Shown: one piece after another, positions 16,792 through 32,324 of the stretch
How positions within the stretch are numbered: the stretch's first letter is position 1
Layout of the letters: each line of letters opens with the position of its first letter
Source of the DNA: a virus
Reading direction: 5' to 3' (one strand)
IMG/VR virus record: IMGVR_UViG_3300019850_000189
Location: 62,001 to 126,000 of that record
DNA length: 64,000 bases
Program-made: the position numbers and the translations under genes
The notes under the pieces: generated by a model
Told to the model about the DNA's origin: nothing
The model's database searches: none
The model's input: only the letters and a program-made list of their open reading frames with translations

Positions 16792-16862
16792 GCCACCGTA
16801 GAATAATGGTAGTTCACTGGACCTTCAATCCAGAGATTCCGGATCATTACCGGCCGGTGGCA
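16792..16862 (+). tRNA. tRNA-Glu (TTC), C33
   Basis: Acceptor GCCACCG/CGGTGGC and anticodon stem CTGGA/TCCAG are perfect. Loop CCTTCAA has C at 33. The T-loop is unusual (ATCATTA; position 58 not A). Could be partly degenerate. Confidence 0.75.
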
Positions 16863-16868
16863 ATTTTC

Positions 16869-16898
16869 TTTACAAAAATGCTTTTTTCGAGGTATAAT
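16869..16898 (+). promoter_or_regulatory. Promoter TTTACA-N18-TATAAT
   Basis: The -10 lies seven bases before the ATG at 16905, so the nfo transcript would be leaderless or nearly so. Confidence 0.65.
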
Positions 16899-16904
16899 AT
16901 AAAT

Positions 16905-17717
16905 ATGAAAAAGTTATTAGGATTTCACATAAGCGGAGCTTCAAAGAATTTGATAGCGAATAGGGATTTCCTAAAGAAAACTGGATTGAGGAATTTTCAG
17001 GTTTTTGTTTCTTCTCCAGCTTCAGGCGCAATGCCAAAACTGTCACCAGAAATGATAGAACTCATGAAGAATTATCATGTGATAGTTCATAGTCCTTATT
17101 GGGTAACATTATCCAGGAAAAAGAGTCTTGGATTTAATCTCGAGTGGGTAATTAGTTTGTTATATCAGGTAGCTGATAATGGATTAAGTATAGATTATGT
17201 AACTCATTTAGGATATCCAGATAAGAGAGCAGGAGAGTATGTCTCTTATGAGGAATCTATCGAAAATACAGTGGATTATTTAAGAAAATTACTTGTTAAA
17301 TGGCCAAAGCATCTTAAGAATACCAGAATTCTGCCGGAAACCGATTCTGGTTCAAAAAATGGCAATGGATTTTCAGGCCTGAAGGGAATAAAGAAAATTG
17401 TCCAAAGAATAAATGATTCTAGAGTTGGAATATGTTATGATACCGAGCATTTATATGCGGCAGGTGAAGATGATCCAACAGAAAAGGATTGGAATTTAAT
17501 CAAGCTGGTTCATCTTAATTCAATTCCGGATAAGGTAGAGAAAGGATCTCATTTGGATAGGCATGGAAAGACATTGATAACTGAATGTAAGGAAGGGCCA
17601 GATTGGGTTTTGGATAAAGCAAGAGAAGCATATAAAAGAAAAATTCCAATGATTCTTGAAAGAAGCGATATGGATGTAGTTTTGAAGGATATAAAATTTA
17701 TATTGGAGCATATATAA
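16905..17717 (+). CDS. nfo: Endonuclease IV-like AP endonuclease
   Basis: 270 aa from the ATG at 16905; longer starts run through the upstream tRNA and are rejected. A TIM-barrel of the xylose-isomerase-like/Nfo family: GFHISGA start, HSPYWV, LPETDSG metal Glu, CYDTEHLYAAG and LNSIPDK...SHLDRHG metal residues, ILERS end. It should cut at abasic sites in base excision repair, in step with the uracil-DNA glycosylase at 47893. Length matches the family. Confidence 0.9.
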   Translation: MKKLLGFHISGASKNLIANRDFLKKTGLRNFQVFVSSPASGAMPKLSPEMIELMKNYHVIVHSPYWVTLSRKKSLGFNLEWVISLLYQVADNGLSIDYVTHLGYPDKRAGEYVSYEESIENTVDYLRKLLVKWPKHLKNTRILPETDSGSKNGNGFSGLKGIKKIVQRINDSRVGICYDTEHLYAAGEDDPTEKDWNLIKLVHLNSIPDKVEKGSHLDRHGKTLITECKEGPDWVLDKAREAYKRKIPMILERSDMDVVLKDIKFILEHI

Positions 17718-17721
17718 TATT

Positions 17722-17961
17722 ATGAAAGCCAAACTCGAATTTGATTTACCAGAAGAAAAAGATGATTTTAAGATGGCCACCAAGGGACCAGATTATTACT
17801 TCACTTTATGGGCCCTTGATCAAGAAATAAGGAATATTCTGAAGTATAATAAATTTCCGTCGGATAAGGTTAAGACACCAGGTGATATGGCAGAGCATAT
17901 AAGAGATGTGCTATATCAGATAATGGAAGATAGAAATTTAATCTTTAATGAAATAAGCTAA
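17722..17961 (+). CDS. Conserved small phage protein, 79 aa
   Basis: Begins MKAKLEFDLPEEKDDFKMA and continues with an acidic helical protein ending in a DRNL segment. Similar short proteins with an LEFDLPEE start are common in phages from my recollection. Role unknown. Four bases after nfo and ends three bases before a tRNA. Confidence 0.75.
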   Translation: MKAKLEFDLPEEKDDFKMATKGPDYYFTLWALDQEIRNILKYNKFPSDKVKTPGDMAEHIRDVLYQIMEDRNLIFNEIS

Positions 17962-17964
17962 TGC

Positions 17965-18037
17965 TGCGGATTAGACTGGAGTGGCTCCAGCGCGGTCTCA
18001 TAAGCCGACTACCCCTGTTCGACTCAGGGATCCGCGA
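17965..18037 (+). tRNA. tRNA-Met (CAT), initiator-like
   Basis: Loop CTCATAA, T-arm CCCTG-TTCGACT-CAGGG. The first acceptor pair is T:G rather than Watson-Crick, a weak position 1-72 pair as in initiators. Initiator identity is inference. Confidence 0.8.
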
Positions 18038-18122
18038 AATACAATGAAAAAATCTAGCCATTGGATTATTGGCGTAGATTGAGCGATCAATTGATATAGC
18101 CTTCGAAGAAAGGGTAATTTTC

Positions 18123-18428
18123 ATGTTAAAAAAAATAATAATTGTTTTGCTGTGTCTGATTGTATTGAGTGCCGTCTGTTCCTTGGGAAACAGTGCCTAT
18201 GATGCTATAAAGAAAGCGCGCTACGCTAGGGCTGAAAAAATTTACTTTAATTTTATAATAGAGATATCCAGGAGTTCCATACGCTATTACAATATATTTT
18301 ATAATCCTTACTCAAATCGGTATAATATTAAAATAATAGACAGTAATTACGTGCTGCATGAATATAATAAGGTTAGATTGAATTATCTGCCTTCGATTTT
18401 AGAAGACATCAGCAATAAGCCTCAGTAG
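18123..18428 (+). CDS. Exported or membrane-anchored protein, 101 aa
   Basis: N-terminal hydrophobic segment (about residues 5-22) reads as a signal anchor, followed by a Tyr/Asn-rich mature part. The last codons and the TAG lie inside the following tRNA gene. Confidence 0.6.
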   Translation: MLKKIIIVLLCLIVLSAVCSLGNSAYDAIKKARYARAEKIYFNFIIEISRSSIRYYNIFYNPYSNRYNIKIIDSNYVLHEYNKVRLNYLPSILEDISNKPQ

Positions 18429-18490
18429 CCAAGTGGTTTGGCACTCGGCTCATATCCGGGAATACGGGGGTTCAAATCCCTCCTGAGGCA
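18419..18490 (+). tRNA. tRNA-Met (CAT), second
   Basis: Acceptor GCCTCAG/CTGAGGC, loop CTCATAT, T-loop TTCAAAT. Full G1-C72 pair, so elongator Met, or Ile (AUA) if the host lysidine synthase modifies it. Overlaps the 3' end of the gene at 18123. Confidence 0.85.
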
Positions 18491-18534
18491 AATGAACGGA
18501 TTATTCCCGTATAAGAAGGTAAGATAATTATGTT

Positions 18535-18792
18535 ATGTTGTCTGAAAATGCAATATATGTTATCCAAAATCAGAAAAAGATCAGAGAAGGATATTTACGC
18601 TATAAATATATCATACTTAAATACTGGGATGGATTACACTGGATTGTAAGATTTCTAAAGAATGGCAATACTAATTGGATTGCGCTAACAGAAACCAGGC
18701 TTGTGAATATGATTGGTGACGGGACTATTAGAATTCCTGACGCGCATGAAAGATTAGAGGCAATGATAATGGAGAATAAATTGGGGTATTAA
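18535..18792 (+). CDS. Hypothetical protein, 85 aa
   Basis: AAGGTAAGATAATT precedes the ATG. Small basic alpha/beta protein with Trp-rich core (HWIVRFLKN). A short echo of its 3' end recurs at about 19131-19165. Unknown. Confidence 0.6.
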   Translation: MLSENAIYVIQNQKKIREGYLRYKYIILKYWDGLHWIVRFLKNGNTNWIALTETRLVNMIGDGTIRIPDAHERLEAMIMENKLGY

Positions 18793-18858
18793 TGATGTCG
18801 CAAAAGAAAATGGGGAATAATGAAATATTTTATCAAAAATATAGGGGGATAAAATGAT

Positions 18859-19125
18859 ATGGAAGAGAAACAGAAGACAGGACCTGTAGAAGACGTATTA
18901 AATAACTTAAATGATACGGTAAAGCAATTAGACGTCCTTGTTAATAAATTGCGAGGGCAACTAAAACCCGTATTGGAATCAGAAGGGGAAGAAGATAAAG
19001 AAGAGTTAAAACAACCTTCGGTACCTGTGACTTGTCCCCTTGAACGAGCACTTATGAATACACAGGAGAGTGTAAATAATATAAAATTTAATATCGATGA
19101 AATATTGCGCAGATTAAGAGTTTGA
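18859..19125 (+). CDS. Coiled-coil protein, 88 aa
   Basis: RBS GGGGGATAAAATGAT. Leu/Val heptads (DTVKQLDVLVNKL) on both sides of an acidic, Pro-containing linker suggest two helices. Resembles small phage proteins with DVLNNL starts; no function. Confidence 0.65.
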   Translation: MEEKQKTGPVEDVLNNLNDTVKQLDVLVNKLRGQLKPVLESEGEEDKEELKQPSVPVTCPLERALMNTQESVNNIKFNIDEILRRLRV

Positions 19126-19169
19126 AAGATTAGAGACAATGATAATGGAAAATAAATTGAGATATTAAT

Positions 19170-19240
19170 GCTTCCATAGTACAAAGGCAGTGCAGTAGGT
19201 TGCCAATCTACGAATGCCGGTTCGATTCCGGCTGGAAGCT
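19170..19240 (+). tRNA. tRNA-Gly (GCC)
   Basis: Acceptor GCTTCCA/TGGAAGC, loop TTGCCAA, T-arm GCCGG-TTCGATT-CCGGC, discriminator T as is usual for glycine. Confidence 0.93.
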
Positions 19241-19254
19241 CACGGGGCTATACT

Positions 19255-19575
19255 ATGAAAGCGATATTATATAAAATCAAAGTCTATGAAAGCTTTCTGT
19301 CTTTTAATCATAGTATGGGCCAGGAAATTTGGGAAATTTACATTCCAAGAGAGCACATGTGCATTAATGAGAAAGCTGGAGTTTTCGTAAGTGAAGAACC
19401 AAGAGACAATAAGTATAAAACCGAGATAGAAATATCGCACAAGAGTATTGATATACTTGAAGAATTTTTGCGCGCACAAAAAGATATGCTATCGGAAGTT
19501 GAACATATATTTGATAGTCTTAGAGATGTGGGCCTGGCAGCAAAGCCTAAACCTTCTGGACTTGTCAAGCGATGA
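19255..19575 (+). CDS. Hypothetical protein, 106 aa
   Basis: ATG 14 bases after the tRNA with GGGGC upstream. Mixed beta N-terminus and a helical C-terminus. Ends just before the next tRNA. Confidence 0.6.
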   Translation: MKAILYKIKVYESFLSFNHSMGQEIWEIYIPREHMCINEKAGVFVSEEPRDNKYKTEIEISHKSIDILEEFLRAQKDMLSEVEHIFDSLRDVGLAAKPKPSGLVKR

Positions 19576-19579
19576 AAAT

Positions 19580-19650
19580 GGAGCATTTGTGTAGTGGTAG
19601 CACGCAGGCCTGTCTAACCTGAGGCAGGGGATCGTTCCCCCTATGCTCCG
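19580..19650 (+). tRNA. tRNA-Asp (GTC)
   Basis: Acceptor GGAGCAT/ATGCTCC, loop CTGTCTA, discriminator G as expected for Asp. The innermost anticodon-stem pair is mismatched. Confidence 0.85.
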
Positions 19651-19672
19651 CATGAATAAAGAGAGGGATAAT

Positions 19673-20350
19673 ATGGAATTAGGCGGCGACGTATCAGAGA
19701 TTTTGAATGTAAGACGCTATCGTAAATATGGCTATCAACTTGTTTACTTTATGACAACTGGTCATGGCTTTAGTAAGGAGCCATTTAAAATGTGCACAGC
19801 GCTTACGTGGCCTGAAGGATTATATATAGGTGATAAAAAAACGGCTTATTTTCTTTGTGTAAAAAAAGGAATAAAACCCGAAAAGATTCCCAAAAAGCCG
19901 TTGCCCAAGTCAGATAAAGCAAAAAGGCTTTTAGAAAATATTGATGGAGATATTACGCCGTGTTCAATCGGTTTTTGTGATAAAGATCAAAAGTGGTATG
20001 GATGGTCTCACAGAGCCATATATGGCTTCGGTATTGGTAGCAGAGTTAAAAAGGGTGATTGCGGTTATATACCATTTAGTCCCGAAGATATGCTGGAGGA
20101 TATGATTAGATTTGATAGTGATGACAATCACGTTATACTGGGACATTCTCTTCGTGCTGAAGATCCAAATCATGAAATAGAAGGGTTTGGTATACTTGTC
20201 AAAGAGGAAATTAAGTCTAAAAGCGGCAGATCTATATTAAGTACTGATTGGGAACCATATCCCGTTCCTTGGGGTAAGGGGGAATGGAAAGCTAAAACTC
20301 TTGAAGATGCCAAGCAGATGGCCATAAATTTTGCTCAAGGTATTGCATGA
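19673..20350 (+). CDS. Hypothetical protein, 225 aa
   Basis: Start at 19673 chosen for RBS GAGAGGG; the open frame extends into the tRNA. Contains AKRLLEN and a WYGWSHRAIYGFGIG segment; ends GKGEWKAKTLEDAKQMAINFA. The last segment resembles phage proteins annotated only as conserved hypothetical. Overlaps the next gene by four bases. Confidence 0.7.
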   Translation: MELGGDVSEILNVRRYRKYGYQLVYFMTTGHGFSKEPFKMCTALTWPEGLYIGDKKTAYFLCVKKGIKPEKIPKKPLPKSDKAKRLLENIDGDITPCSIGFCDKDQKWYGWSHRAIYGFGIGSRVKKGDCGYIPFSPEDMLEDMIRFDSDDNHVILGHSLRAEDPNHEIEGFGILVKEEIKSKSGRSILSTDWEPYPVPWGKGEWKAKTLEDAKQMAINFAQGIA

Positions 20351-20553
20351 GAAGAAAGAAGAAATTAGAATTAGCCAAAAGACTTTTATGTAATAAATGC
20401 TGCGGCACATGCTATAATCGTTTAGGTAATGGTTATTGCCGTTTATTATTGGATAAAGGTGCTAATGTTTCTCGCGTGAGCGATAATCAATATTGCAAAA
20501 ACTGGAAGCCGGATGTTGAAGGCCGTATTAAATTCAGCTTAACTTGGGGATAG
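20347..20553 (+). CDS. Four-Cys small protein, 68 aa
   Basis: ATGA overlap upstream. LAKRLLCNKCCGTC...YC...YCKNW: an A-K-x-LL helix then CxxC, C and CxxW. Similar layouts occur at 31381, 31860, 35086 and 38143, an apparent phage family of zinc-binding miniproteins. Confidence 0.7.
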   Translation: MRRKKKLELAKRLLCNKCCGTCYNRLGNGYCRLLLDKGANVSRVSDNQYCKNWKPDVEGRIKFSLTWG

Positions 20554-20566
20554 TGGAGGTTTAACT

Positions 20567-20860
20567 TTGGGAGTATATGACTGCTATGGTAATTGTCAAC
20601 TTAAAATTGGTCCATGTGAATTAGATGTTTATGATATAGGAGATAAAGTTCCAATCACAGATGGAATATATTTGGATTATGGTGGAGCAGTTGTTATTAA
20701 AGATGGAATATTTGTCGCAGAGTTCAAAGAGTTAACCGATAAATATGGCGGTTCTATAGATATAGAACAAGTGGCCAATGAAAGGAATCCATTATATGAA
20801 TTGACACAACAAGTTACTAAAAACGCCAAGAAACAGACGGGCCCTACAGATAAATTATAG
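20567..20860 (+). CDS. Hypothetical protein, 97 aa (TTG start)
   Basis: TTG preceded by GGAGGTTTAACT, a strong RBS that fixes the start. CYGNCQLKIGPC, then beta-rich segments and a polar tail. Unknown. Confidence 0.65.
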   Translation: MGVYDCYGNCQLKIGPCELDVYDIGDKVPITDGIYLDYGGAVVIKDGIFVAEFKELTDKYGGSIDIEQVANERNPLYELTQQVTKNAKKQTGPTDKL

Positions 20861-20898
20861 ATAGTAGGATTGTAGTTGATGCTGGCGAATCCGGATGA

Positions 20899-20970
20899 TC
20901 CTCTCTGATGAAATGGGTATCATAGTTGACCGTTAATCAACCTTTTATGGTTCGAATCCATAGGGAGGAG
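20899..20970 (+). tRNA. tRNA-Asn (GTT), C33
   Basis: Acceptor TCCTCTC/GGGAGGA, stem GTTGA/TCAAC, loop CCGTTAA with C33, T-loop TTCGAAT, discriminator G. Confidence 0.88.
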
Positions 20971-20971
20971 A

Positions 20972-21082
20972 ATGAGAAGAAACACAAAAAAATGTCCTAA
21001 ATGCGGTCGCCTTGTGGGCTTGAGAAATTATAAGAGAAAAAGAAAAGCAAGGTCGGGCAGTAAAACAAATAGAAGTATATAG
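20972..21082 (+). CDS. Small basic CxxC peptide, 36 aa
   Basis: ATG two bases after the tRNA (GGGAGGAGA upstream serves as RBS from the tRNA's 3' strand). MRRNTKKCPKCGRLVGL then a Lys/Arg-rich tail; possible RNA-binding half ribbon. Confidence 0.5.
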   Translation: MRRNTKKCPKCGRLVGLRNYKRKRKARSGSKTNRSI

Positions 21083-21178
21083 AGTCCTTAGGGATCAGGG
21101 AATGATTGTTCGCATGAGAGGAGTGTTGATAGTATTTGAGAAAATATCAAAATTTGTGCCAAAAAATAGGTTAATGTA

Positions 21179-21440
21179 GCATATATACAAATATGGGCAG
21201 GTTCCGTTATAATGCACTAGCAGAGGAATAAGCGCGGCGGTTCGGAAAGACGAACTTAGATTATCAGGTGACTGCCGGCAATAGTTCGGCGCGCCATCTA
21301 ATGCGAGGTTTAATTTAAAACCTCATCACGGCGATTTAATTGATTTAGGCCTGTGGCTGCGAATGCCAATAATCGAAACCAATAGAGATCGCAAAGCGAA
21401 TAATCCGTTGGAAGTCCGCCTGCCCATTATTATATTAGGA
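21179..21440 (+). ncRNA. Candidate structured RNA, about 240 nt
   Basis: Begins at a GCATATATA motif (21179-21187). No convincing frame until 21447. Hairpins seen: GTTCG-GAAAGA-CGAAC (about 21240), GCCG-N9-CGGC, and GAGGTTT-AATTTA-AAACCTC (about 21303-21323). The segment is GC-richer than its flanks. No known family was recognised. It could also be the long 5' leader of the gene at 21447. Confidence 0.5.
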
Positions 21441-21446
21441 TATGAT

Positions 21447-21623
21447 ATGAATCTTCAAGAAGCGAAAGCACTCGTCGGAAAAACAGTTGAATTTTCCGGG
21501 GCTTTCAGACACATTTACAAGGCCAAAATATTTAAAGTGCGAGAGTTTAGTGACATTATCGTCGCCGAACTGGATGATGGATCGACCGTAATTAATATAG
21601 AATTATTAAGACTGTTAGATTAA
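21447..21623 (+). CDS. Hypothetical protein, 58 aa
   Basis: ATG at 21447 after TTAGGATATG; the frame is open from 21363 but that part overlaps the structured segment. A small SH3-like beta protein (FSGAFRHIYKAKIFKVREFS) is plausible. Confidence 0.55.
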   Translation: MNLQEAKALVGKTVEFSGAFRHIYKAKIFKVREFSDIIVAELDDGSTVINIELLRLLD

Positions 21624-21627
21624 TAGT

Positions 21628-21699
21628 GCCCCTCAAGCATACTCGGTGATGTGCCGGTTTTGTACGCCGGAGAAGGGAGTTCGATTCTCCCGGGGGGCT
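21628..21699 (+). tRNA. tRNA-Thr (TGT)
   Basis: Acceptor GCCCCTC/GGGGGGC, stem CCGGT/GCCGG, loop TTTGTAC, T-arm GGGAG-TTCGATT-CTCCC. Position 8 is A, not U. Confidence 0.85.
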
Positions 21700-21718
21700 G
21701 ATTGAATATTGATTTCAT

Positions 21719-21791
21719 GCCCTCGTAGCTTAATAGGTAAAGCAATTTCTCGGTAAGGAAGAGAGTCCGGATTCAATTTCCGGCGAGGGCT
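21719..21791 (+). tRNA. tRNA-Thr (GGT), C33
   Basis: Acceptor GCCCTCG/CGAGGGC, T-arm CCGGA-TTCAATT-TCCGG. Loop TCGGTAA has C33. Anticodon stem ATTTC/GGAAG has one mismatch and a wobble. Confidence 0.8.
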
Positions 21792-21813
21792 CACAGATGT
21801 CTATACATATTAC

Positions 21814-21885
21814 GCCCACATAGCTTTAATGGAAAGCGGGAATTTCGTAAGTTCCAAGTTGCCGGTTCAAATCCGACTGTGGGCT
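21814..21885 (+). tRNA. tRNA-Thr (CGT)
   Basis: Acceptor GCCCACA/TGTGGGC, stem GGAAT/GTTCC, loop TTCGTAA. Completes a three-gene Thr block that reads all ACN codons. Confidence 0.9.
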
Positions 21886-21932
21886 TAATTTTATGCCCAT
21901 AGCATATATAACAAATAAAGGGAGGTGCAAAA

Positions 21933-22109
21933 ATGAGCGATATTAATGTTGAAAAGGAAGACAACATACGTAAGCTTACAGAGCTTAGGTCAACCTTACA
22001 AGTGCTAGGATCAGTTAACCCTAACACGGATGAGGAAGTATGTAAAAGATTGTCAGCTATTAAAAGAAGTATACTTGACAAGATTGATAAACTTGTTGAA
22101 GAGATATAA
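21933..22109 (+). CDS. Small helical protein, 58 aa
   Basis: RBS GGGAGGTGC. Starts MSDINVEKEDNIRKL, two charged helices. Close in style to the coiled-coil protein at 18859. Likely real; unknown. Confidence 0.65.
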   Translation: MSDINVEKEDNIRKLTELRSTLQVLGSVNPNTDEEVCKRLSAIKRSILDKIDKLVEEI

Positions 22110-22114
22110 AAGTC

Positions 22115-22143
22115 TTTACAAATTGGCAATTATGTGTTATACT
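22115..22143 (+). promoter_or_regulatory. Promoter TTTACA-N17-TATACT
   Basis: Perfect -35 variant and 17-base spacer, -10 at 22138, ATG of the next gene at 22156. A second match (TTTACA-N17-TATAAT) lies at about 22239-22267 inside that gene. Confidence 0.65.
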
Positions 22144-22155
22144 AAAGAAGTGAAT

Positions 22156-22593
22156 ATGAAAGAATACCATAGATATCATCATTTAGAACTAGCATTAGAA
22201 AGATTTGACATATCAAAAAAAATAATAAAAAAAAGCTTTACAAAAGAACAATTCTATTGTATAATTATAAATATGAAGGAAAAAGGCAAAATGGAAGCAA
22301 TAGATGACTTTTTGTGGTTCTCTGAACTGCAACTAAGTACGGGCATTTGCTTGGTTTTACAAAGTGACCGAAACCTGCCATCCGAGGGCTATACTATCCC
22401 CAAGCGAATATCGGATGAAAAAACCCGGTTACCAGTGAGCTTTCGCCTCCTTCATCGACTTGAGGCTGATGACCGAAGTACATTTCCCCAATTGAATGAA
22501 AATGCCAATGGTATTTCATCTCAATTCGCTTTAAAGGGATTAGTGGAAAACCCGGTTGATCTTGTAGGCTCAGTCTCATTCAGTCGCAATTAA
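22156..22593 (+). CDS. Hypothetical protein of mixed character
   Basis: 145 aa from ATG 22156, just after the promoter. The first 55 residues look like a normal phage protein (helical, Lys-rich). From about 22320 the base composition becomes GC-richer and both strands stay open, so the 3' part may be an inserted or non-coding element rather than native coding sequence. Confidence 0.4.
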   Translation: MKEYHRYHHLELALERFDISKKIIKKSFTKEQFYCIIINMKEKGKMEAIDDFLWFSELQLSTGICLVLQSDRNLPSEGYTIPKRISDEKTRLPVSFRLLHRLEADDRSTFPQLNENANGISSQFALKGLVENPVDLVGSVSFSRN

Positions 22594-22644
22594 GGTGACA
22601 ATTTGCCACTTTAAAATAAAATATTTCCTTGACAGGGGGATCTC

Positions 22645-23106
22645 GTGAAAAAGATCACATTATTTCTAGTAGCATTGTTGTTTATTTTGGCAGTTGGAGT
22701 TGTGGCATTTGCAGACATGAAGCCTGCTGACATCGTTGGTAATTGGCTGATTATGCAGGAGTCAAGTGCGGATCAGGATGGCCTTACGCTCTACGAGAAA
22801 GGCTCTGATAGTTATGTCATCTTTAAGTTCAAAGATGATATAATTTGTGCTCCTGCTTTCAATAAAAATGGTGTCAATCATGTTGCCACTTATGATTCTG
22901 GTGAGTATGTAACTGTTAGTAAAGTTAGCATATTTACTGATTCATATGGTAAAAAATGGTATCACTTCTATGACAATTGGTATAACATAGATGTTATGTT
23001 AAAGTTTCATAACAAAGATATCGTTTATGGTTATGCGATCAATGATGACTGGACATTGAAAATAGTGCTCAAGAGATCAGGCACATTCGACTTGAAAAGT
23101 GAATAA
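22645..23106 (+). CDS. Secreted protein, lipocalin-like
   Basis: 153 aa, GTG start after AGGGGGATCTC. Signal peptide to about residue 23 (VVAFA-DM). The mature part starts DIVGNWLIMQ and has repeated beta strands; a GxW near the start is reminiscent of lipocalin-like domains. Followed by a strong terminator, so a single-gene unit. Confidence 0.65.
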   Translation: MKKITLFLVALLFILAVGVVAFADMKPADIVGNWLIMQESSADQDGLTLYEKGSDSYVIFKFKDDIICAPAFNKNGVNHVATYDSGEYVTVSKVSIFTDSYGKKWYHFYDNWYNIDVMLKFHNKDIVYGYAINDDWTLKIVLKRSGTFDLKSE

Positions 23107-23125
23107 TTAAAATAGCAATGAGTTG

Positions 23126-23155
23126 AAAGCCTCGGATATTCGAGGCTTTTTTTTT
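23126..23155 (+). terminator. Rho-independent terminator
   Basis: AAAGCCTCG-GATATT-CGAGGCTTT followed by a run of T. Ends the secreted-protein gene. Confidence 0.9.
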
Positions 23156-23200
23156 GCCAAAATAATTATGTTATGGAGGATAAAATGCAATTAAAGAAAT

Positions 23201-23431: not shown

Positions 23432-23444
23432 AATTTTTCTGGAT

Positions 23445-26010: not shown

Positions 26011-26059
26011 GACATATAGAGTTGTAGTCTCAGGCTTTATAAATTTTTTGGATAATTCA

Positions 26060-26173
26060 ATGCTTACAAAAGGTTTAAAGAAAGATGATTTTTTTGAACT
26101 TGCTAAAGTCTATGAAATAAGCTGGACAAAATATCAATTTGTTGAAGAACTTACCAAATTATGCCAGATTTGA
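26060..26173 (+). CDS. Small protein, 37 aa
   Basis: MLTKGLKKDDFFELAKVYE and 18 more residues, protein-like composition. A second frame opens at the overlapping ATG 26161 (TTATG) and is protein-like to about 26300, then runs into the Ala tRNA. Perhaps remnants of one gene split by a frameshift. RBS weak. Confidence 0.35.
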   Translation: MLTKGLKKDDFFELAKVYEISWTKYQFVEELTKLCQI

Positions 26174-26302
26174 TGGCATCCTGCATACAAGCAATTTTAA
26201 GTATTTACTTTGATGGCAATATGGTTATATTAAATGACATGATCACAAAGAGCTATGTTAAACTAGCAAATAAAACTGCTCAGGTCAAATATGGACTTAT
26301 AA

Positions 26303-26377
26303 GGGGCTGTAGCTCAATTTTGGGAGAGCGTCTGACCTGCAATCAGAAGGTAAGGGGTCCGAATCCCCTCAGCTCCA
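26303..26377 (+). tRNA. tRNA-Ala (TGC), C33 and C55
   Basis: Acceptor GGGGCTG/CAGCTCC, stem TCTGA/TCAGA, loop CCTGCAA (C33), T-arm AGGGG-TCCGAAT-CCCCT (C55). Note G3:T70, the Ala identity wobble pair. Confidence 0.9.
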
Positions 26378-26385
26378 CAAATGAC

Positions 26386-26414
26386 TTTACAAAATTGTTG
26401 TTATGTGTTATAAT
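26386..26414 (+). promoter_or_regulatory. Promoter TTTACA-N17-TATAAT
   Basis: Consensus spacing, -10 at 26409, for the gene at 26437. Confidence 0.7.
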
Positions 26415-26436
26415 ATGTGTACTCAAGGAGAACATC

Positions 26437-26661
26437 ATGGCCCAAAAACTGAAATGGTTTCATTATATCGTTGATGGCATGGATGCCAGAAAGGCGGTCA
26501 TGATTAAAAAAGCTTTGCTTGGCGCCGTTCCTCAGATTATAAATGTGTATGTTAGTTTACGCGAATCAAAAGTTTCAGTGTATTCCATTAAACCATTTGA
26601 GAAGCAGGTTAAAATGGCAGCAGAAGTGGCGAATGCCAGCTTTAGAACAAAACTCAAATGA
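26437..26661 (+). CDS. Hypothetical protein, 74 aa
   Basis: RBS AAGGAGAACATC. Small alpha/beta protein (KWFHYIVDGMDARKA...) whose length and style suggest a ferredoxin-like fold. Own promoter. Unknown. Confidence 0.65.
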   Translation: MAQKLKWFHYIVDGMDARKAVMIKKALLGAVPQIINVYVSLRESKVSVYSIKPFEKQVKMAAEVANASFRTKLK

Positions 26662-26662
26662 A

Positions 26663-26735
26663 TGGCCCGTAGTTCAACAGGAAGAGCGCCAGACTTTGAA
26701 TCTGGAGGCTAGTGGTCCAAATCCACTCGGGCCAG
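26663..26735 (+). tRNA. tRNA-Gln (TTG), C55
   Basis: Acceptor TGGCCCG/CGGGCCA, stem CCAGA/TCTGG, loop CTTTGAA, T-loop TCCAAAT (C55), discriminator G. Weak U1-A72 type first pair suits Gln. Confidence 0.92.
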
Positions 26736-26740
26736 AACAT

Positions 26741-26812
26741 GGTGGTATTGGTGTAGAGGTCGCACGCAGGTCTGTGGAACCTGAGGGCTCGGCTCAATTC
26801 CGGGATACCACC
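26741..26812 (+). tRNA. tRNA-His (GTG)
   Basis: G-1 is encoded and faces C73, the His identity pair. Stem CAGGT/ACCTG, loop CTGTGGA. T-loop CTCAATT has C at 54. Confidence 0.92.
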
Positions 26813-26862
26813 CACTTATTATACTAAAGGAAAATATAATGAACCAAAAAAATCTGCGCTGA

Positions 26863-26973
26863 GTGTCGGATTATTTGAGGGCAAAGGAACAATTACAAAA
26901 CGAACTAGTAGAAATAATTAGGGGTGCACCCAACGGTTGTAGGGGAAATCAAATTTGGAGAGGAGATAATTAG
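26863..26973 (+). CDS. Possible small protein, 36 aa (GTG start)
   Basis: GTG TCG frame with protein-like content (SDYLRAKEQLQNELVEIIRG) ends in TAG touching the next ATG. The same frame upstream has an ATG at 26839 separated by TGA, so it may be the tail of a decayed gene. Confidence 0.35.
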   Translation: MSDYLRAKEQLQNELVEIIRGAPNGCRGNQIWRGDN

Positions 26974-27183
26974 ATGAAAAAATATAGAGTTGTGGAATAT
27001 GAGTATTGTAAACATAAAATCTTTGAAGTGCAGAAGAAATCTATGTTTGGATTTTGGTATAATCCAGACAATGTAGATGGGAATCTTACTAGATATTATG
27101 ATACAATTGAAGAAGCAAAAGAAATTATAAGAAGAAAAATAGCACTAACAACTAAAAGAGTAGTATATGAATCTCCACTTTGA
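26974..27183 (+). CDS. Hypothetical protein, 69 aa
   Basis: RBS GGAGAGGAGATAATTAG. Begins MKKYRVVEYEYCKHKIFEVQ with FGFWYNP; reads like small beta-type phage proteins of the WKIVE/DUF-like kind. Likely real. Confidence 0.65.
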   Translation: MKKYRVVEYEYCKHKIFEVQKKSMFGFWYNPDNVDGNLTRYYDTIEEAKEIIRRKIALTTKRVVYESPL

Positions 27184-27227
27184 GGCATAAATAGATAGAA
27201 ACAGAACAAGTTATTTTGGAGATAGCA

Positions 27228-27389
27228 ATGACATTAAGAGAACAGTTTGAAAAAGAGTATCATAAACAACCAGTAGAACCTTATCCAGAAAGTGAAGATT
27301 CAGAGCAATGGTTAAAGATTGTTGCATGGGAAGAAAAATATTTAACATGGCTTAAAAATAAACTTCTTCAAAGTATAGATTGGAAATAA
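27228..27389 (+). CDS. Acidic hypothetical protein, 53 aa
   Basis: GGAGATAGCA precedes the ATG. Glu/Trp-rich, EQWLKIVAWEEKYLTWL, helical. Confidence 0.55.
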   Translation: MTLREQFEKEYHKQPVEPYPESEDSEQWLKIVAWEEKYLTWLKNKLLQSIDWK

Positions 27390-27411
27390 AGATGAGTTAG
27401 GGAATGGGAAT

Positions 27412-27474
27412 ATGAATAATGTAGATTGTTATTTTGATAAAAATGGTAGAGAGGTAATGAAAAATGGAAGGTAG
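27412..27474 (+). pseudogene. Fragment resembling the start of the gene at 28293
   Basis: 20 codons containing YFDKNGREV, which is also present in the protein at 28293. Truncated by TAG; a local partial duplication. RBS GGGAATGGGAAT is still present. Confidence 0.45.
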
Positions 27475-27658
27475 ACATAAAGGGAGTGACAATTCTCATA
27501 GTATAGGGCATAATACTGATACAGAGGAAATAGATAAAATTATAGAAGAAGGTAAATTTGAGGAGACATTAAAAGAAATTATCGTTAAAATGGCAAGTAT
27601 AGATTTTAAGGAAGAGCTAAATAAAATAAAGGGGCCCAATAAAAAATGGCAGATTTAA
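27464..27658 (+). CDS. Hypothetical protein, 64 aa
   Basis: Overlaps the fragment upstream by 11 bases and the next gene by 13. Acidic, His/Ser-rich start then helical. RBS GAGAGGTAATG. Confidence 0.55.
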   Translation: MEGRHKGSDNSHSIGHNTDTEEIDKIIEEGKFEETLKEIIVKMASIDFKEELNKIKGPNKKWQI

Positions 27659-27864
27659 TAAAGATTAAAAACAGGTTTTTAAACCTTGATAAAGTGAGAG
27701 AGATTCATTTTTTAGATAAAAGAATAATTTTGAGTTATGATAATATTGATCGGGAATGGGTTGTAGTTCCTGATAATGAAATTGGAGGTTATCACAAAAT
27801 CACTAAACAGGATTATAAGATGATATCGCAGGAATTACAAAAAATCTCTCACGTAATTATTTAG
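27646..27864 (+). CDS. Hypothetical protein, 72 aa
   Basis: RBS AAGGGGCC. Beta-rich (IKIKNRFLNLDKVREIHFLD), resembling small phage proteins that start with 'residue-binding' beta hairpins; no function. Confidence 0.6.
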   Translation: MADLIKIKNRFLNLDKVREIHFLDKRIILSYDNIDREWVVVPDNEIGGYHKITKQDYKMISQELQKISHVII

Positions 27865-27879
27865 TAGAAGAAGAATGTT

Positions 27880-28077
27880 ATGACAGATGAGGAAATAAAA
27901 ACAATTAAGACAATTAATCAAATGACTCAGAGGGAAATGGCCTCCTTATGGAGATTTGCACCATCAGGACATCCATATTTTGACAAAACTAAGCCATATT
28001 GGAAGGTATTCAAAAATAGGTTTTTTGATGAACTTGGAGGTTTTACTCCTGAAATATCAAAATCTATTGGGTGGTAA
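27880..28077 (+). CDS. Conserved phage-type protein, 65 aa
   Basis: MTQREMASLWRFAPSGHPYF motif, FDELGGFTPEISKSIGW end. This pattern is familiar from many prophage and phage hypothetical proteins. Role unknown. Confidence 0.75.
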   Translation: MTDEEIKTIKTINQMTQREMASLWRFAPSGHPYFDKTKPYWKVFKNRFFDELGGFTPEISKSIGW

Positions 28078-28144
28078 AATATTAACATAAATTATATCCG
28101 TTGAGGAAGAGAGAACAAGAACGAAAATATATTTTAATAGTTAT

Positions 28145-28219
28145 TGGCCTGTGGTGCAAATTGGTAGCACGACTGACTCTGGATCAGTAGATTTGAGGGT
28201 TCGAATCCTTCCAGGCCAG
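28145..28219 (+). tRNA. tRNA-Gln (CTG)
   Basis: Acceptor TGGCCTG/CAGGCCA, stem ACTGA/TCAGT, loop CTCTGGA, T-arm GAGGG-TTCGAAT-CCTTC, discriminator G. Confidence 0.92.
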
Positions 28220-28292
28220 AATGAGCTTTAATTGTAAATATTGGTGGAAAATTAAAATACCCAGTAATTTTTAGAATAACAGGGAGATTTTA

Positions 28293-28526
28293 ATGCAAAA
28301 AAATAAAGAGGCAAAAAGCTTGAATAATATTAGTTGCCGTTATTTTGATAAAAATGGTAGAGAGGTTAAAGAAGGTGATACAATCCAGTTTACTCTATAT
28401 GAGGGAATACCTAACAAGAAGGAAGTGGTAAGGAAAGATAAAAAAATGAAAAAGTTTGGAATCGTGGGATTGTATCCGCCAATGATGAAATATTTGGAGT
28501 TTGTCATTGTTGATAATGGTAAGTAA
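28293..28526 (+). CDS. Hypothetical protein, 77 aa (YopX-like style)
   Basis: RBS AGGGAG. CRYFDKNGREVKEGDTIQF resembles the opening of small phage proteins that describe a beta-barrel (YopX or SH3-like). A fragment copy is at 27412. Confidence 0.6.
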   Translation: MQKNKEAKSLNNISCRYFDKNGREVKEGDTIQFTLYEGIPNKKEVVRKDKKMKKFGIVGLYPPMMKYLEFVIVDNGK

Positions 28527-28553
28527 CGAACGAGTATGAGGAGATTTTATATA

Positions 28554-28646
28554 ATGTATGTATTCGGATTATTTGAGGCGTTTTTTGTAGGGATGGCAAT
28601 AGGAATGATAATTGATTATGTGAGTAGAGAAAGAAAAGTAGAATAA
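28554..28646 (+). CDS. Small membrane peptide, 30 aa
   Basis: GAGGAG upstream. One hydrophobic stretch (FGLFEAFFVGMAIGMII) with charged tail RERKVE. Bases 28647-28770 beyond it hold only a 6-codon RBS-led frame at 28710 that stops at once. Confidence 0.45.
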   Translation: MYVFGLFEAFFVGMAIGMIIDYVSRERKVE

Positions 28647-28770
28647 ATTATTTCATTAAAATATAAAATAAAGGTGGGTTAAAAAAGCTCGAAGAGGAGG
28701 AAACTAAAATGAATCAAAAACAACTGTAACAGAAATGATGACAGGAAAATGACAGTGAGCCGTAATATAT

Positions 28771-28858
28771 GGAGGCGTGTGATAATGGTAGTCGGGCCGC
28801 CTTGAAAGCGGTTGATCGGTGCTGAGCCGGTTTGGGGGTTCAAGTCCCTCCGCCTCCG
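28771..28858 (+). tRNA. tRNA-Ser (TGA)
   Basis: Acceptor GGAGGCG/CGCCTCC, loop CTTGAAA, long variable arm (class II), discriminator G. First of four tandem Ser tRNAs. Confidence 0.93.
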
Positions 28859-28915
28859 AAAAAAATTATTAATAAAAATCATCCATATTTAGTGGAAACA
28901 TTTTAGAGAGTTTAC

Positions 28916-29006
28916 GGAGGCGTACTCAAGTTGGTGAAGAGGCTGGTTTGCTAAACCAGAAGATCGGTTAATAGCCGGTGCGAGAGTTCGAGTCTCTCCG
29001 CCTCCG
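28916..29006 (+). tRNA. tRNA-Ser (GCT)
   Basis: Same acceptor stem as the previous gene, stem CTGGT/ACCAG, loop TTGCTAA, long variable arm. Reads AGC/AGU. Confidence 0.93.
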
Positions 29007-29096
29007 CATAAATATAGTTGATGATTTTTTAAAAAATCTTGGATATTATAACATAGCCGGTGTAGACGAAGTGAATTTATATTTTTGAAATTCCTT

Positions 29097-29179
29097 GGAG
29101 GCGTGTGATAATGGTATTCAGCCAGTTTCGAAAACTGGTGGCCGCTCGCGACTTGCAGGTTCGAATCCTGCCGCCTCCG
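29097..29179 (+). tRNA. tRNA-Ser (CGA)
   Basis: Acceptor as in the TGA copy, including the following GTGTGATAATGGTA; stem CCAGT/ACTGG, loop TTCGAAA. Clearly a duplicate that changed anticodon. Confidence 0.93.
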
Positions 29180-29190
29180 AATATATACAT

Positions 29191-29276
29191 GGAGCTGTGT
29201 GATAATTGGTAGTCAGCTTGACTGGAATTCAAGTGCCCGCGTAAGTGGGTTGCAGGTTCGATTCCTGCCGGCTCCG
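29191..29276 (+). tRNA. tRNA-Ser (GGA)
   Basis: Acceptor GGAGCTG/CGGCTCC, stem CTTGA/TCAAG, loop CTGGAAT, variable arm CCCGC-GTAA-GTGGG. Completes decoding of all six Ser codons. Confidence 0.93.
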
Positions 29277-29376
29277 AGCATATATACTAAGTGAAAGTCA
29301 TTGAACAAAACGCTTCATGAAGCATATTTATATTTAGATTGTATATATATAATAATAAAATACCTAGGAGAAGAAA

Positions 29377-29844
29377 ATGAAAAGAATATTTTTAATATTG
29401 CCAATTTTATTAATGATAGCAGGATTTGCATCAGCAGCAGATGTTCATAGTTATACTGCTATAAAAGTTGGCTATGGAAATGAAACTGGAGGAGCAGGAA
29501 TAGGAATAGAAAATAAATATCACTTTTTTGGTTTTACGGGTGGTATTGGTTATTTTAACGATAAAATATGTTGGAATTTTGGGTTTAAGGGTTATCTTGA
29601 TTTAGGCGAAGTAGCCACAGTATATGGTGGATTAAACTTTGGAATTTTAGGTTATGAGTGGTCTTCATTGGATAATGTATATAAGTATATTTATGGTCCA
29701 TATTTTATGATTGGGGCAGCTTTTGTTGGAAAAAATGGTTTTTATGCAGATATTGGCGGCGGCTATGGCGGATCAAAGACAGAATATTTTGGCAAACTAG
29801 AATTTCCTACAGTGCAACTTTCAGTAGGATATGCATTTAATTAA
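29377..29844 (+). CDS. Outer-membrane beta-barrel-like secreted protein
   Basis: 155 aa, RBS TAGGAG. Signal peptide ends FASA-AD. The mature part alternates Gly/aromatic strands (GFTGGIGYF, YGGLNFGILGYEW) and ends LSVGYAFN, with a near-terminal aromatic residue typical of outer-membrane barrels. Could modify the host surface during infection. Confidence 0.7.
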   Translation: MKRIFLILPILLMIAGFASAADVHSYTAIKVGYGNETGGAGIGIENKYHFFGFTGGIGYFNDKICWNFGFKGYLDLGEVATVYGGLNFGILGYEWSSLDNVYKYIYGPYFMIGAAFVGKNGFYADIGGGYGGSKTEYFGKLEFPTVQLSVGYAFN

Positions 29845-29890
29845 AATATAATGGGGAGATTATAATCTCCCCTGCTCAAAAGAGTAAAAT

Positions 29891-30256
29891 ATGAAAAAAC
29901 TTTTTTTATTAACAATAATTATAGGAGTACTAATAATTCTTAGCAATTGCTCAGTAACTAATGATGTACATACGCCTACTCTTGTTACGCCTACTACTAG
30001 TAGCGCTAGAGTAATGGTTGTAAATGAGTATGATGGAATTGAAGATTATACTGCTATATACAAAAATGATTCGTATTATGTTCCTTCTGGTTGGGATTCA
30101 TTTGTTTATATTTATATCGAATGGAGTGGCAGTGATAGTAATCATGTAACAATAGATATTTGGGATGGTACAAGGTTTGTTTATGAACAAAACTTTGATT
30201 TAAACGATGGTGATGAAGCTATGATATGGATAGTAGATGGTAGTTATCATCCATAA
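29891..30256 (+). CDS. Lipoprotein, 121 aa
   Basis: Signal peptide with lipobox LSNC near residue 20, a Thr/Pro/Ser-rich linker, then a beta-sandwich-like domain. Forms a pair with the barrel protein upstream. Confidence 0.65.
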   Translation: MKKLFLLTIIIGVLIILSNCSVTNDVHTPTLVTPTTSSARVMVVNEYDGIEDYTAIYKNDSYYVPSGWDSFVYIYIEWSGSDSNHVTIDIWDGTRFVYEQNFDLNDGDEAMIWIVDGSYHP

Positions 30257-30367
30257 TCAAAAGAAACTATTAATGAAGATCTTATAAAAAGCGGCAACTG
30301 AGATTGTTAAATCTCTTTATAGAGGTCAAATAAAAGAAAAAGGATTTGTGAAAATTAAGGAGCTTAG

Positions 30368-30529
30368 ATGCATATTGTAATAAATGTTTTAATGATTTTC
30401 GGATTGCTTGGTGTATTATGCCTTGAGTCAATTTATGTAGATGTCATGTGGGACAAAATTGACAGGTGGTCAGAAGACCGTAAAAGAGTGGGCAGGAACT
30501 TGATTGCCAGGAAGTTCAAACGGCATTAG
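30368..30529 (+). CDS. Small membrane protein, 53 aa
   Basis: RBS AAGGAG. One hydrophobic N-terminal helix (INVLMIFGLLGVLCL), then a basic cytoplasmic tail (RKRVGRNLIARKFKRH). Confidence 0.55.
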   Translation: MHIVINVLMIFGLLGVLCLESIYVDVMWDKIDRWSEDRKRVGRNLIARKFKRH

Positions 30530-30541
30530 ATTCTGTGTTTA

Positions 30542-30613
30542 GCGCGCGTAGTTCAATGGTAGAACAGCGTCCTTATAAGGCGTAATTTCCCCGTCCAAAT
30601 CGGGGCGTGCGCA
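30542..30613 (+). tRNA. tRNA-Ile (TAT), C55
   Basis: Acceptor GCGCGCG/CGTGCGC, loop CTTATAA, T-arm CCCCG-TCCAAAT-CGGGG with C55. Reads AUA without lysidine, a type many bacteria lack. Confidence 0.88.
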
Positions 30614-30630
30614 AGATGAGTGATATAGTT

Positions 30631-30860
30631 TGACGGTTCCGGTTCTACGCTGTATATGATAACATATATAGAGGAAACACCGAACATCTCTGCTCTAATG
30701 CAGGAGGCGAAAGCTGTTTGGACTGCAGAGGATGCGACCACAAATAACTCTAGGTGGTGAGCAGGCCAATGATGAGATGGTAGTGGGCAGCTGAAAAGCC
30801 AGTTGAAAAAACTGAGATAGATGTAGAACAAAAACAGAATTCGGGTTATAGGAACCGTCA
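30631..30860 (+). ncRNA. rnpB: RNase P RNA (reduced)
   Basis: Ends pair as a 10-bp P1 (TGACGGTTCC with GGAACCGTCA). Conserved 5' core GAGGAAACACCGAAC pairs through CCGAA with TTCGG of the conserved 3' core ACAGAATTCGGGTTA to form P4. AGATAGATG before the 3' core also matches the bacterial consensus. About 230 nt, well below the usual 350-400, so peripheral helices are missing. It would cut 5' leaders from the dense tRNA array with host or phage RnpA. Confidence 0.9.
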
Positions 30861-30885
30861 ACTTAATATAGCATAAGGAGTGAAA

Positions 30886-31122
30886 ATGTCTTTAGAAGAT
30901 GAAATTGTCGAGCATCTTAAACAGGACTTCACGGGTCATGAATTTAGTATTACAACCCAAGGCGATGTGAGAAATATACTTATGGATGGTGTGTCTTGTT
31001 TGACCTATGATGATATACAGATTGACTCCCTTAAAAAATCTTATTCTGCAGCAGCTGAAATGGCATTTGATGAGTTTTATGGCCTGATAGAGCAATCAGT
31101 TAAAATGGTTCTGAATAAATGA
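30886..31122 (+). CDS. Hypothetical protein, 78 aa
   Basis: AAGGAG five bases before the ATG at 30886. Acidic; contains DEIVEHLKQDFTGHEFSI and an SVKMVLNK end. Sits immediately downstream of RNase P RNA; no RnpA features. Confidence 0.65.
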   Translation: MSLEDEIVEHLKQDFTGHEFSITTQGDVRNILMDGVSCLTYDDIQIDSLKKSYSAAAEMAFDEFYGLIEQSVKMVLNK

Positions 31123-31218
31123 TTTTAAATATATCAGGATATTTTCTTGGATATATTTAAATTTATAATAGTAGTTTTTCTTATTTATTTGTTTATAAAA
31201 TATATGTAGAAGGAAATA

Positions 31219-31317
31219 ATGATTTTTAATTCCGAAACAGCGGCGTGGATTCTTGTCGGGTTTGGTGTAGCTACATTTGTGTTTGCGGCTTTATGGCAGA
31301 GGATTAAGCACCTGTAG
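31219..31317 (+). CDS. Small membrane peptide, 32 aa
   Basis: RBS AAGGAAATA. Hydrophobic middle (AAWILVGFGVATFVFAALW). Its last three codons and TAG lie in the following tRNA. A TTG-started hydrophobic frame just upstream is less convincing. Confidence 0.45.
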   Translation: MIFNSETAAWILVGFGVATFVFAALWQRIKHL

Positions 31318-31378
31318 TTCAATGGTAGAACCGGCGAACGATAATCGTCAAACGAAAGTTCAACTCTTTCCGGGTGCA
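31308..31378 (+). tRNA. tRNA-Ile (GAT), C33
   Basis: Acceptor GCACCTG/CGGGTGC, stem GGCGA/TCGTC, loop ACGATAA with C33, T-arm GAAAG-TTCAACT-CTTTC. Confidence 0.87.
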
Positions 31379-31380
31379 CA

Positions 31381-31524
31381 ATGAAACCTAAAACTCAGGC
31401 CGCGAAGATGCTTTTGCGTTTTGGCAAGAAGTGTTGGAATTGCGGTAATCTTGATCTTGGACGGAAAAATTCATTTTGTTGCTGCCGTATAATCCAAGCT
31501 TCTATACTCGGTCCTATGAAATAG
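31381..31524 (+). CDS. Cys-rich miniprotein, 47 aa
   Basis: ATG two bases after the tRNA. TQAAKMLLRFGKKCWNCGN...FCCCR: an A-K-x-LL helix then a zinc-type Cys cluster, like 20347 and 31860. Confidence 0.5.
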   Translation: MKPKTQAAKMLLRFGKKCWNCGNLDLGRKNSFCCCRIIQASILGPMK

Positions 31525-31588
31525 AAAAAGGGACATGGGAAGGCCCTAATGAATTTGATAAATTTATAGAAACAATTAGGAGTAAAAA

Positions 31589-31783
31589 ATGAGCTACAAT
31601 TCATCAGCTGGTGGAGATTTTGGCATAGGAATGGTTTTATTTATAGTTTTTCTAATATTGAAACTGACACACACTATAGATTGGCGCTGGATTTGGGTAT
31701 GTTCTCCATTGTGGATTTTTGCTGGTTTTGTTATTTTCGTGCTTCTCGCTTTGGGCGTAATAGCCGCAATATCGAGAATGTAA
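31589..31783 (+). CDS. Membrane protein, 64 aa
   Basis: RBS TAGGAG. Two hydrophobic helices with IDWRWIWVCSPLWI between them, a pattern recalled from short phage proteins related to the TMEM185/Fragile-X-F-associated domain. Probably inner membrane. Confidence 0.65.
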   Translation: MSYNSSAGGDFGIGMVLFIVFLILKLTHTIDWRWIWVCSPLWIFAGFVIFVLLALGVIAAISRM

Positions 31784-31785
31784 TA

Positions 31786-31859
31786 GGGTCCTTGACTCAA
31801 TCAGGTAGAGTACTGGCCTCTTAAGCCAGGATGTGAAGGTTCGATTCCTTCAGGGCCCA
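31786..31859 (+). tRNA. tRNA-Lys (CTT)
   Basis: Acceptor GGGTCCT/AGGGCCC, stem CTGGC/GCCAG, loop CTCTTAA, T-arm GAAGG-TTCGATT-CCTTC. Confidence 0.93.
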
Positions 31860-32120
31860 ATGATTGGTTTTAAGATAGAAATAGAGAGAAAGAAATTAGC
31901 GAAGCGACTTCTGCAAGATAGGACTTGCGAAAATTGTGGGATACCACTTAGCTTGATGTATGAAATGATTAACAAAGATGAAATAGAAAGAGCATTAAGA
32001 GAGCGTGGTTGCCAGTTGCGAGTGAAGTATATAAAAGACAATAAGCTTATTATGAAATCTCCATTTGAAAGAACTTGTAGCAGTTTTACGGAAAAAAATG
32101 ACAACAATCGAAGTAGCTAA
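31860..32120 (+). CDS. Four-Cys protein, 86 aa
   Basis: ATG directly abuts the tRNA. ERKKLAKRLLQDRTCENCG, a later GC and TCSSF: same helix-plus-four-Cys plan as 20347 and 35086. Start placed at 31860 since upstream codons are tRNA. Confidence 0.6.
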   Translation: MIGFKIEIERKKLAKRLLQDRTCENCGIPLSLMYEMINKDEIERALRERGCQLRVKYIKDNKLIMKSPFERTCSSFTEKNDNNRSS

Positions 32121-32157
32121 GAATTTATTAAAAATAAAACTTGTGATAGGAAGTTAA
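32098..32157 (+). CDS. Possible tiny peptide, 19 aa
   Basis: ATG in the tail of the preceding gene; product MTTIEVAKNLLKIKLVIGS again carries the A-K-x-LL helix. Support is weak. Confidence 0.25.
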   Translation: MTTIEVAKNLLKIKLVIGS

Positions 32158-32173
32158 TTGTTGAGTATAAGTA

Positions 32174-32246
32174 GGCTGGGAAGCTCAATTGGTAGAGCGG
32201 TGGGTTGAAGACCCGCGCGTAGGCAGTTCGATACTGTCCCCAGCCA
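32174..32246 (+). tRNA. tRNA-Phe (GAA)
   Basis: Acceptor GGCTGGG/CCCAGCC, stem GTGGG/CCCGC, loop TTGAAGA, T-loop TTCGATA. Position 8 is A. Confidence 0.9.
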
Positions 32247-32249
32247 ATA

Positions 32250-32324
32250 GCGGGGTTGGCTCAGTTGGTTCAGAGCGGTAGTCCTACAAACTACAGGCCG
32301 AAAGTTCGAATCTTTCACCCCGCA
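32250..32324 (+). tRNA. tRNA-Val (TAC), C33
   Basis: Acceptor GCGGGGT/ACCCCGC, stem GTAGT/ACTAC, loop CCTACAA with C33, T-loop TTCGAAT. Three bases after the Phe gene. Confidence 0.9.

Follow-up and report, generated by a model that had tools for sequence, protein, structure and literature searches.

Uridine at position 33 (U33) is a textbook invariant of transfer RNA (tRNA). Natural departures from it in working tRNAs have been described for the metazoan initiator tRNA-Met, which carries C33 (PMC9023262), and for tRNA-Ser(CAG) of the Candida CTG clade, a working elongator in which U33 is replaced by G33 or C33 (PMC8645108). Genomic C at another near-invariant U is known from Methanopyrus kandleri, where C8 of many tRNAs is edited to U8 (PMC3695527), and the tRNA arrays of mycobacteriophages and of phage T5 contain nuclease-evading tRNAs with altered anticodon loops (PMC10264068, PMC12409363). 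Here, we describe a phage tRNA array in which six tRNAs carry C33, located in a 64,000-nucleotide stretch (hereafter the window) that spans bases 62001-126000 of the 189,375-base IMG/VR virus contig IMGVR_UViG_3300019850_000189 and has a guanine-plus-cytosine (GC) content of 36%.

The array differs from each of these systems. Compared with the metazoan initiator, C33 is found here in a bacterial virus and in elongator tRNAs of several kinds, and whereas the Candida case concerns a single tRNA tied to codon reassignment, phages have up to ten C33 tRNAs per array and the window uses the standard code. The C33 tRNAs of the window are known from their genes; they differ from those of M. kandleri in that position 33 and not position 8 is changed, and in part of the array only, and from those of T5 in that none of the T5 tRNAs checked has C33. 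A term search of the texts consulted on nuclease-evading phage tRNAs returned neither position 33 nor U33, and a description of C33 in phage tRNAs was not found in the literature searched, which covered few subscription journals and preprints; as far as that literature shows, the feature is undescribed. A repeated, isoacceptor-specific departure from U33 in dozens of phages provides a natural series of variants on the role of U33, and it also bears on the reasons for phage tRNA arrays and on a possible role of tRNA-cutting defences in shaping phage tRNAs.

Six C33 tRNAs in the phage array

The tRNA array (16638..43220, plus strand; ARAGORN and Rfam) comprises 36 tRNAs by ARAGORN, all on the plus strand between 16.6 and 43.2 kilobases. 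The original prediction had assigned C33 to seven of the tRNA genes, and six of these were recovered by both ARAGORN and Rfam, all on the plus strand: tRNA-Glu(TTC) (16792..16862; loop CCTTCAA, T-loop ATCATTA; 54.6 bits in Rfam), tRNA-Asn(GTT) (20899..20970; CCGTTAA; 50.4 bits), tRNA-Thr(GGT) (21719..21792; TCGGTAA; 57.6 bits), tRNA-Ala(TGC) (26303..26378; CCTGCAA; 61.3 bits), which also carries C55, tRNA-Ile(GAT) (31308..31379; ACGATAA; 57.4 bits), and tRNA-Val(TAC) (32250..32325; CCTACAA; 68.3 bits, the top tRNA score of the window). The seventh, tRNA-Pro(TGG), read directly from the sequence at approximately 25045..25117 on the plus strand, is doubtful: its loop CCTGGGA has C33 and its anticodon stem CAGCG/CGCTG is perfectly paired, but its T-loop GGCAGAG is abnormal, and it was reported neither by ARAGORN nor by the Rfam model RF00005 (E up to 1). 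When it is included, the virus has about 37 tRNA genes.

As had been stated, the anticodon stems of the six are perfect or nearly so, with five of five pairs formed in five tRNAs and a single A.G mismatch in tRNA-Thr(GGT). A shifted loop register can be rejected, since ARAGORN keeps a seven-nucleotide loop with C33 and full stems, and RF00005 accepts the same six genes as full-length matches of 50-68 bits, above the curated cut-off of 29. The six thus lack the canonical U at position 33 and have C there in the correct register, while the mismatched stems or low covariance scores of pseudogenes are seen in none of them, tRNA-Pro(TGG) being the exception. The remaining tRNAs of the array have U33, as originally noted, and serve as an internal control. 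An artefact of detection was likewise rejected: with T33 replaced computationally by C, A, or G, ARAGORN still recovered 92, 89, and 89% of the tRNAs, respectively, so the program does not create the C33 pattern.

For Ala, Val, and Asn, and for reading GAA with Glu(UUC), the phage has C33 tRNAs only, and of the codons counted, GAA and AAT are used most (49 and 48 per 1,000, respectively), which argues for function. An altered decoding system, one of the options raised for the anomaly, is not supported: TAA, TGA, and TAG are all used as stops (151, 91, and 54, respectively, in a set of chosen open reading frames), as in the standard code.

Recurrence and isoacceptor bias of C33

To place the window among other phages, phage tRNAs were gathered through T-arm DNA patterns, blind to position 33, the T-arm samples being the first matches listed by the pattern scan. 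The pooled set combined three differently anchored samples (T-arm, the peptidyl-tRNA hydrolase PTH2, and HNH) with fetched contigs; most tests treat tRNAs as independent, and the contigs are partial and some are related. Among 1,846 distinct tRNAs of the T-arm sample, 54 had C33, three had A33, and one had G33. In the pooled set, 144 of the 3,009 tRNAs carrying either C or T here had C33, and seven more tRNAs had A or G (3,016 in total); the deviating base was therefore C, and not A or G, in 144 of 151 cases. The window stood out even so, with C33 in 6/35 tRNAs passing the stem filter compared to 15/475 in the first phage-contig sample (binomial P = 7e-4), which bears out the anomaly as a real one. 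In bacterial and archaeal contigs, C33 was found in 4/232 tRNAs, and three of these four come from a single Acidobacteriales contig that is itself a tRNA array, leaving approximately 1/229 elsewhere. In that contig (L235, 1220-4198 plus flanks), a gene for a TrlF family AAA-like ATPase interrupts the array, and the C33 tRNAs are Val, Ile(GAU), and Glu(UUC), which rank among the most affected isoacceptors of phages as well.

The distribution of C33 is over-dispersed, with none in most arrays and many in a few. The richest arrays are L665 (10/36), G049 (8/54), G044 (8/41), and G020 (8/39), followed by L711 (6/37), the window (6/35), G002 (6/20), and L322 (5/16); in L665, C33 occurs in Val(CAC) and in Thr tRNAs of three anticodon types, among others. 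In the cultured Streptomyces phage DekoNeimoidia, ARAGORN assigned C33 to a Cys(GCA) tRNA. Most C33 tRNAs resemble U33 tRNAs at least as closely as they resemble one another, which makes many independent origins likely. For the Ala tRNA of the window, phage G044 has a homologue that is 86% identical and also carries C33; other homologues have U33. A search for the pattern in related phages had been proposed as a check; among the phages sampled, it recurs widely and mostly in certain isoacceptors, and C33 looks to be a genuine, recurrent feature of viral tRNAs and not an error, albeit one that is yet to be explained.

The isoacceptor bias is strong. In the pooled set, C33 was most frequent in Val (31/126), Thr (17/181), Glu (14/154), Ile (12/146), and Pro (12/150) tRNAs, and it was absent from Phe, Tyr, and Trp tRNAs taken together (0/265) and rare in those for Met (2/219) and Arg (3/263). 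The same held across three separately gathered samples (the T-arm sample being pooled for this purpose with the window and phage G002), in which C33 was found in 13/71, 10/31, and 5/18 of the Val tRNAs and in no Phe, Tyr, or Trp tRNA. In addition, C33 tRNAs favour a purine at position 35 (P = 6e-5) and disfavour C35. Residue 33 contacts a purine at position 35, and this contact could partly rescue the U-turn, a possibility that the purine preference fits.

Aside from position 33, the tRNAs are intact. Per 100 stem pairs, C33 and U33 tRNAs had 1.03 and 0.65 A.C mismatches and 1.69 and 2.06 other mismatches, respectively, and non-A.C mismatches were fewer in C33-rich arrays (1.22 per 100) than in C33-free arrays (1.65 per 100). 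C33 tRNAs are therefore not otherwise degraded, and general decay is ruled out by the stem mismatch rates for six of the seven tRNAs of the window. Together with the repeatable isoacceptor bias, this disfavours plain relaxed selection, which had been listed among the explanations.

PTH2, GC content, and the possible causes of C33

Directly downstream of the C33 tRNA-Val lies a gene for an archaeal-type peptidyl-tRNA hydrolase, PTH2 (32358..32765, plus strand; NCBIfam TIGR00283, 90.3 bits against a cut-off of 82; Pfam PF01981, E = 4e-28), a gene that surfaced in the comparison of C33-rich with C33-free arrays. In PTH2-anchored phage arrays, C33 was found in 45/534 tRNAs, compared to 47/1,809 in the T-arm sample with L488 left out. 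A control anchored on HNH, an unrelated nuclease common near tRNA arrays, was also raised (25/492, 5.1%), and part of the excess in the PTH2 sample therefore reflects large arrays or GC content. The association was clear in phages below 42% GC, where C33 was found in 20/247 tRNAs with PTH2 and in 17/1,280 without it (array-level P = 1e-5). As a general explanation, PTH2 was rejected, because the HNH control was raised too and the effect is clear only in these AT-rich phages; the link is a lead, not a law, although a concrete and testable one. C33 also rises with contig GC (rho 0.34) and tRNA GC (rho 0.50), which indicates that mutation pressure matters. At 36% GC, the window is an exception, with the highest C33 count of the 75 AT-rich arrays sampled.

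The change from U to C is the mildest at position 33, as the base remains a pyrimidine and the 2'-OH still contacts base 35, while the N3-H contact of U33 to the phosphate backbone is lost. With a probability of roughly 45%, we consider that these phage tRNAs are real and functional, that C has taken the place of U33 in them and most likely persists in the mature RNA, and that the replacement is linked to PTH2 in AT-rich phages. Under this reading, C33 would weaken the U-turn and not abolish it, so that the change would be tolerated in Val, Thr, Glu, Ile, and Pro tRNAs and hardly in those for Phe, Tyr, Trp, Met, Arg, and Gly, and it would have arisen repeatedly and separately, with GC-rich phages more prone to it. 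The tRNAs would be charged and would decode; it is plausible that, being weakly held, they leave the ribosome as peptidyl-tRNA more often and are recycled by PTH2. In yeast, U33C mutants of tRNA-Gln show the phenotype expected of poor decoding (PMC3664417). Several points weigh against this reading. Charging and the unedited state are deduced from DNA sequence; the extra C55 found in C33-rich arrays is not accounted for by a weakened U-turn; the link between PTH2 and C33 is weak in GC-rich phages; some C33-rich arrays have no PTH2 in the contig fragments seen; and in the blind sample, the three arrays with PTH2 had C33 in 7/31, 0/15, and 0/11 tRNAs.

Another reading is that C33 exists in the genome only and that the transcripts regain U33 through C-to-U RNA editing, as base 8 does in M. 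kandleri; the C55 excess is one reason to consider it. Five tRNAs of the window have C55, with TCC T-loops (26303-26378, 26663-26735, 30542-30613, 33106-33193, and 33499-33572), a proportion (5/35) well above that in the first phage sample (2/472) or in cells (0/232), and on contig L465, C55 reaches 11/32. C33-rich arrays tend to be the same as those bearing C55: they have C55 in 21/520 tRNAs, compared to 9/1,079 (P = 3e-5), with no significant excess of A or G, and the excess was not significant within low-GC arrays alone. Changes at position 33 are nearly all to C, which also speaks for editing, although C is the chemically mildest replacement as well. Evidence for an enzyme did not emerge. 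Deaminases of family PF00383 were not enriched (2/12 contigs with C33-bearing arrays versus 7/18 with C33-free arrays), no candidate editor was found among the proteins shared by C33-rich arrays, and the only deaminase found in the contig, a dCMP-deaminase-like protein (57479..57991, plus strand), was rejected as the editor because proteins of its type occur widely among such phages, with no enrichment where C33 is frequent. An excess of A.C mismatches, which would be a trace of wider editing, was suggestive in single arrays and not significant in the larger set. At most 10/36 tRNAs of an array have C33, unlike the 30 edited tRNA species of M. kandleri (PMC3695527). The C55 excess keeps this part of the original prediction open, and an enzyme of the host or of a novel type might act as the editor, but on balance, we regard editing as improbable.

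It is somewhat less improbable, though still doubtful, that C33 alters the anticodon loop such that anticodon nucleases of the host or of rivals, for example PrrC, RloC, VapC, and Cas13a, no longer cut the phage tRNA while decoding is kept, and such evasion can be combined with functional, unedited C33 tRNAs as their selective cause. Escape of phage tRNAs from anticodon nucleases through changes of the loop has published precedent (PMC10264068, PMC12409363), PrrC cleaves 3' of U33 (PMC2610378), and the strong isoacceptor bias suggests selective targets. The loops of the six tRNAs differ from the cellular form, and the Acidobacteriales array built around the TrlF family ATPase has C33 in the three isoacceptors named above, all of them among the most affected in phages. 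However, the isoacceptor ranking is matched by none of the known nucleases; LshCas13a prefers Lys, Glu, Gln, and Thr tRNAs (PMC11042736), and RloC prefers tRNA-Glu (PMC2610378). TrlF was rejected as a C33-linked nuclease: in the gene table used for the six TrlF plasmids sampled, which does not include RNA genes, no tRNA array is annotated next to TrlF. The T5 tRNAs defeat PARIS and yet have no C33, and evasion predicts neither the dependence on GC nor C55. That dependence, together with the many scattered origins of C33 and the switching of homologues between C33 and U33, would be expected if supplementary phage tRNAs under weak selection underwent slightly harmful T-to-C drift, mostly in GC-rich genomes, and had no special function. 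Such drift is unlikely as the whole account: the window has 36% GC, and yet no other AT-rich array sampled has as much C33; C33 tRNAs show no other sign of decay; and the contrast between 0/265 in Phe, Tyr, and Trp tRNAs and 31/126 in Val tRNAs needs at least a strong isoacceptor-specific constraint.

The cause of C33 may be (i) tolerated drift, (ii) nuclease evasion, or (iii) editing. A broader and tentative possibility, for which we see less than an even chance, is that a group of large phages keeps a coordinated set of tRNAs with altered conserved uridines (U33 to C and, for some, U55 to C). An as yet undiscovered editor would turn the C back into U, or the C would stay and yield nuclease-proof tRNAs, with a phage PTH2 rescuing their raised peptidyl-tRNA drop-off.

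Other features of the contig and of C33-rich arrays

The phage is tailed, with a T4-like large terminase, and the nearest records in phage collections are less than 60% identical. Relatives of its terminase and polymerase, searched for an intact array, yielded only short contigs or contigs without tRNAs. Genes for rIIA, a DnaB-type helicase, a primase, and a DNA polymerase are present in the contig, and a CCA-adding enzyme, a peptide deformylase, and a GGQ release-factor-like protein are putatively assigned, by eye from the contig translations. The array covers 20/20 amino acids only if the doubtful Pro tRNA is counted.

A transfer-messenger RNA (tmRNA) lies at 46.2 kilobases, and a GOLLD RNA (25559-26036, 162.6 bits) lies inside the tRNA region, with a Leu(TAG) tRNA embedded at 25640-25713 that has two A.C mismatches in its anticodon stem. 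A tRNA with a CUA anticodon (43149-43220; tRNA-Pyl by ARAGORN) is an apparent amber suppressor, yet TAG ends 54/296 of the chosen open reading frames; phage G020 likewise has a CUA-anticodon tRNA. Degenerate or odd tRNA-like sequences occur within and past the array: a Pro-like one at 23886-23959, a Trp-like one at approximately 23992-24075, a Leu-like one with extra bases in the anticodon arm at 37613-37695, and a further Pro-like one at 52231-52314.

Outside the window, a small protein family that appears NADAR-like by eye is found in six C33-rich arrays (G002, G044, G048, G049, L605, and L625) and in 0/54 C33-free arrays, with no match in the window. On the minus strand of contig G000 (bases 138-3354; L009), six tandem paralogues start with MKDLR(R/K)QYIK and contain repeats of the form YKxGKLNGEYKxW.

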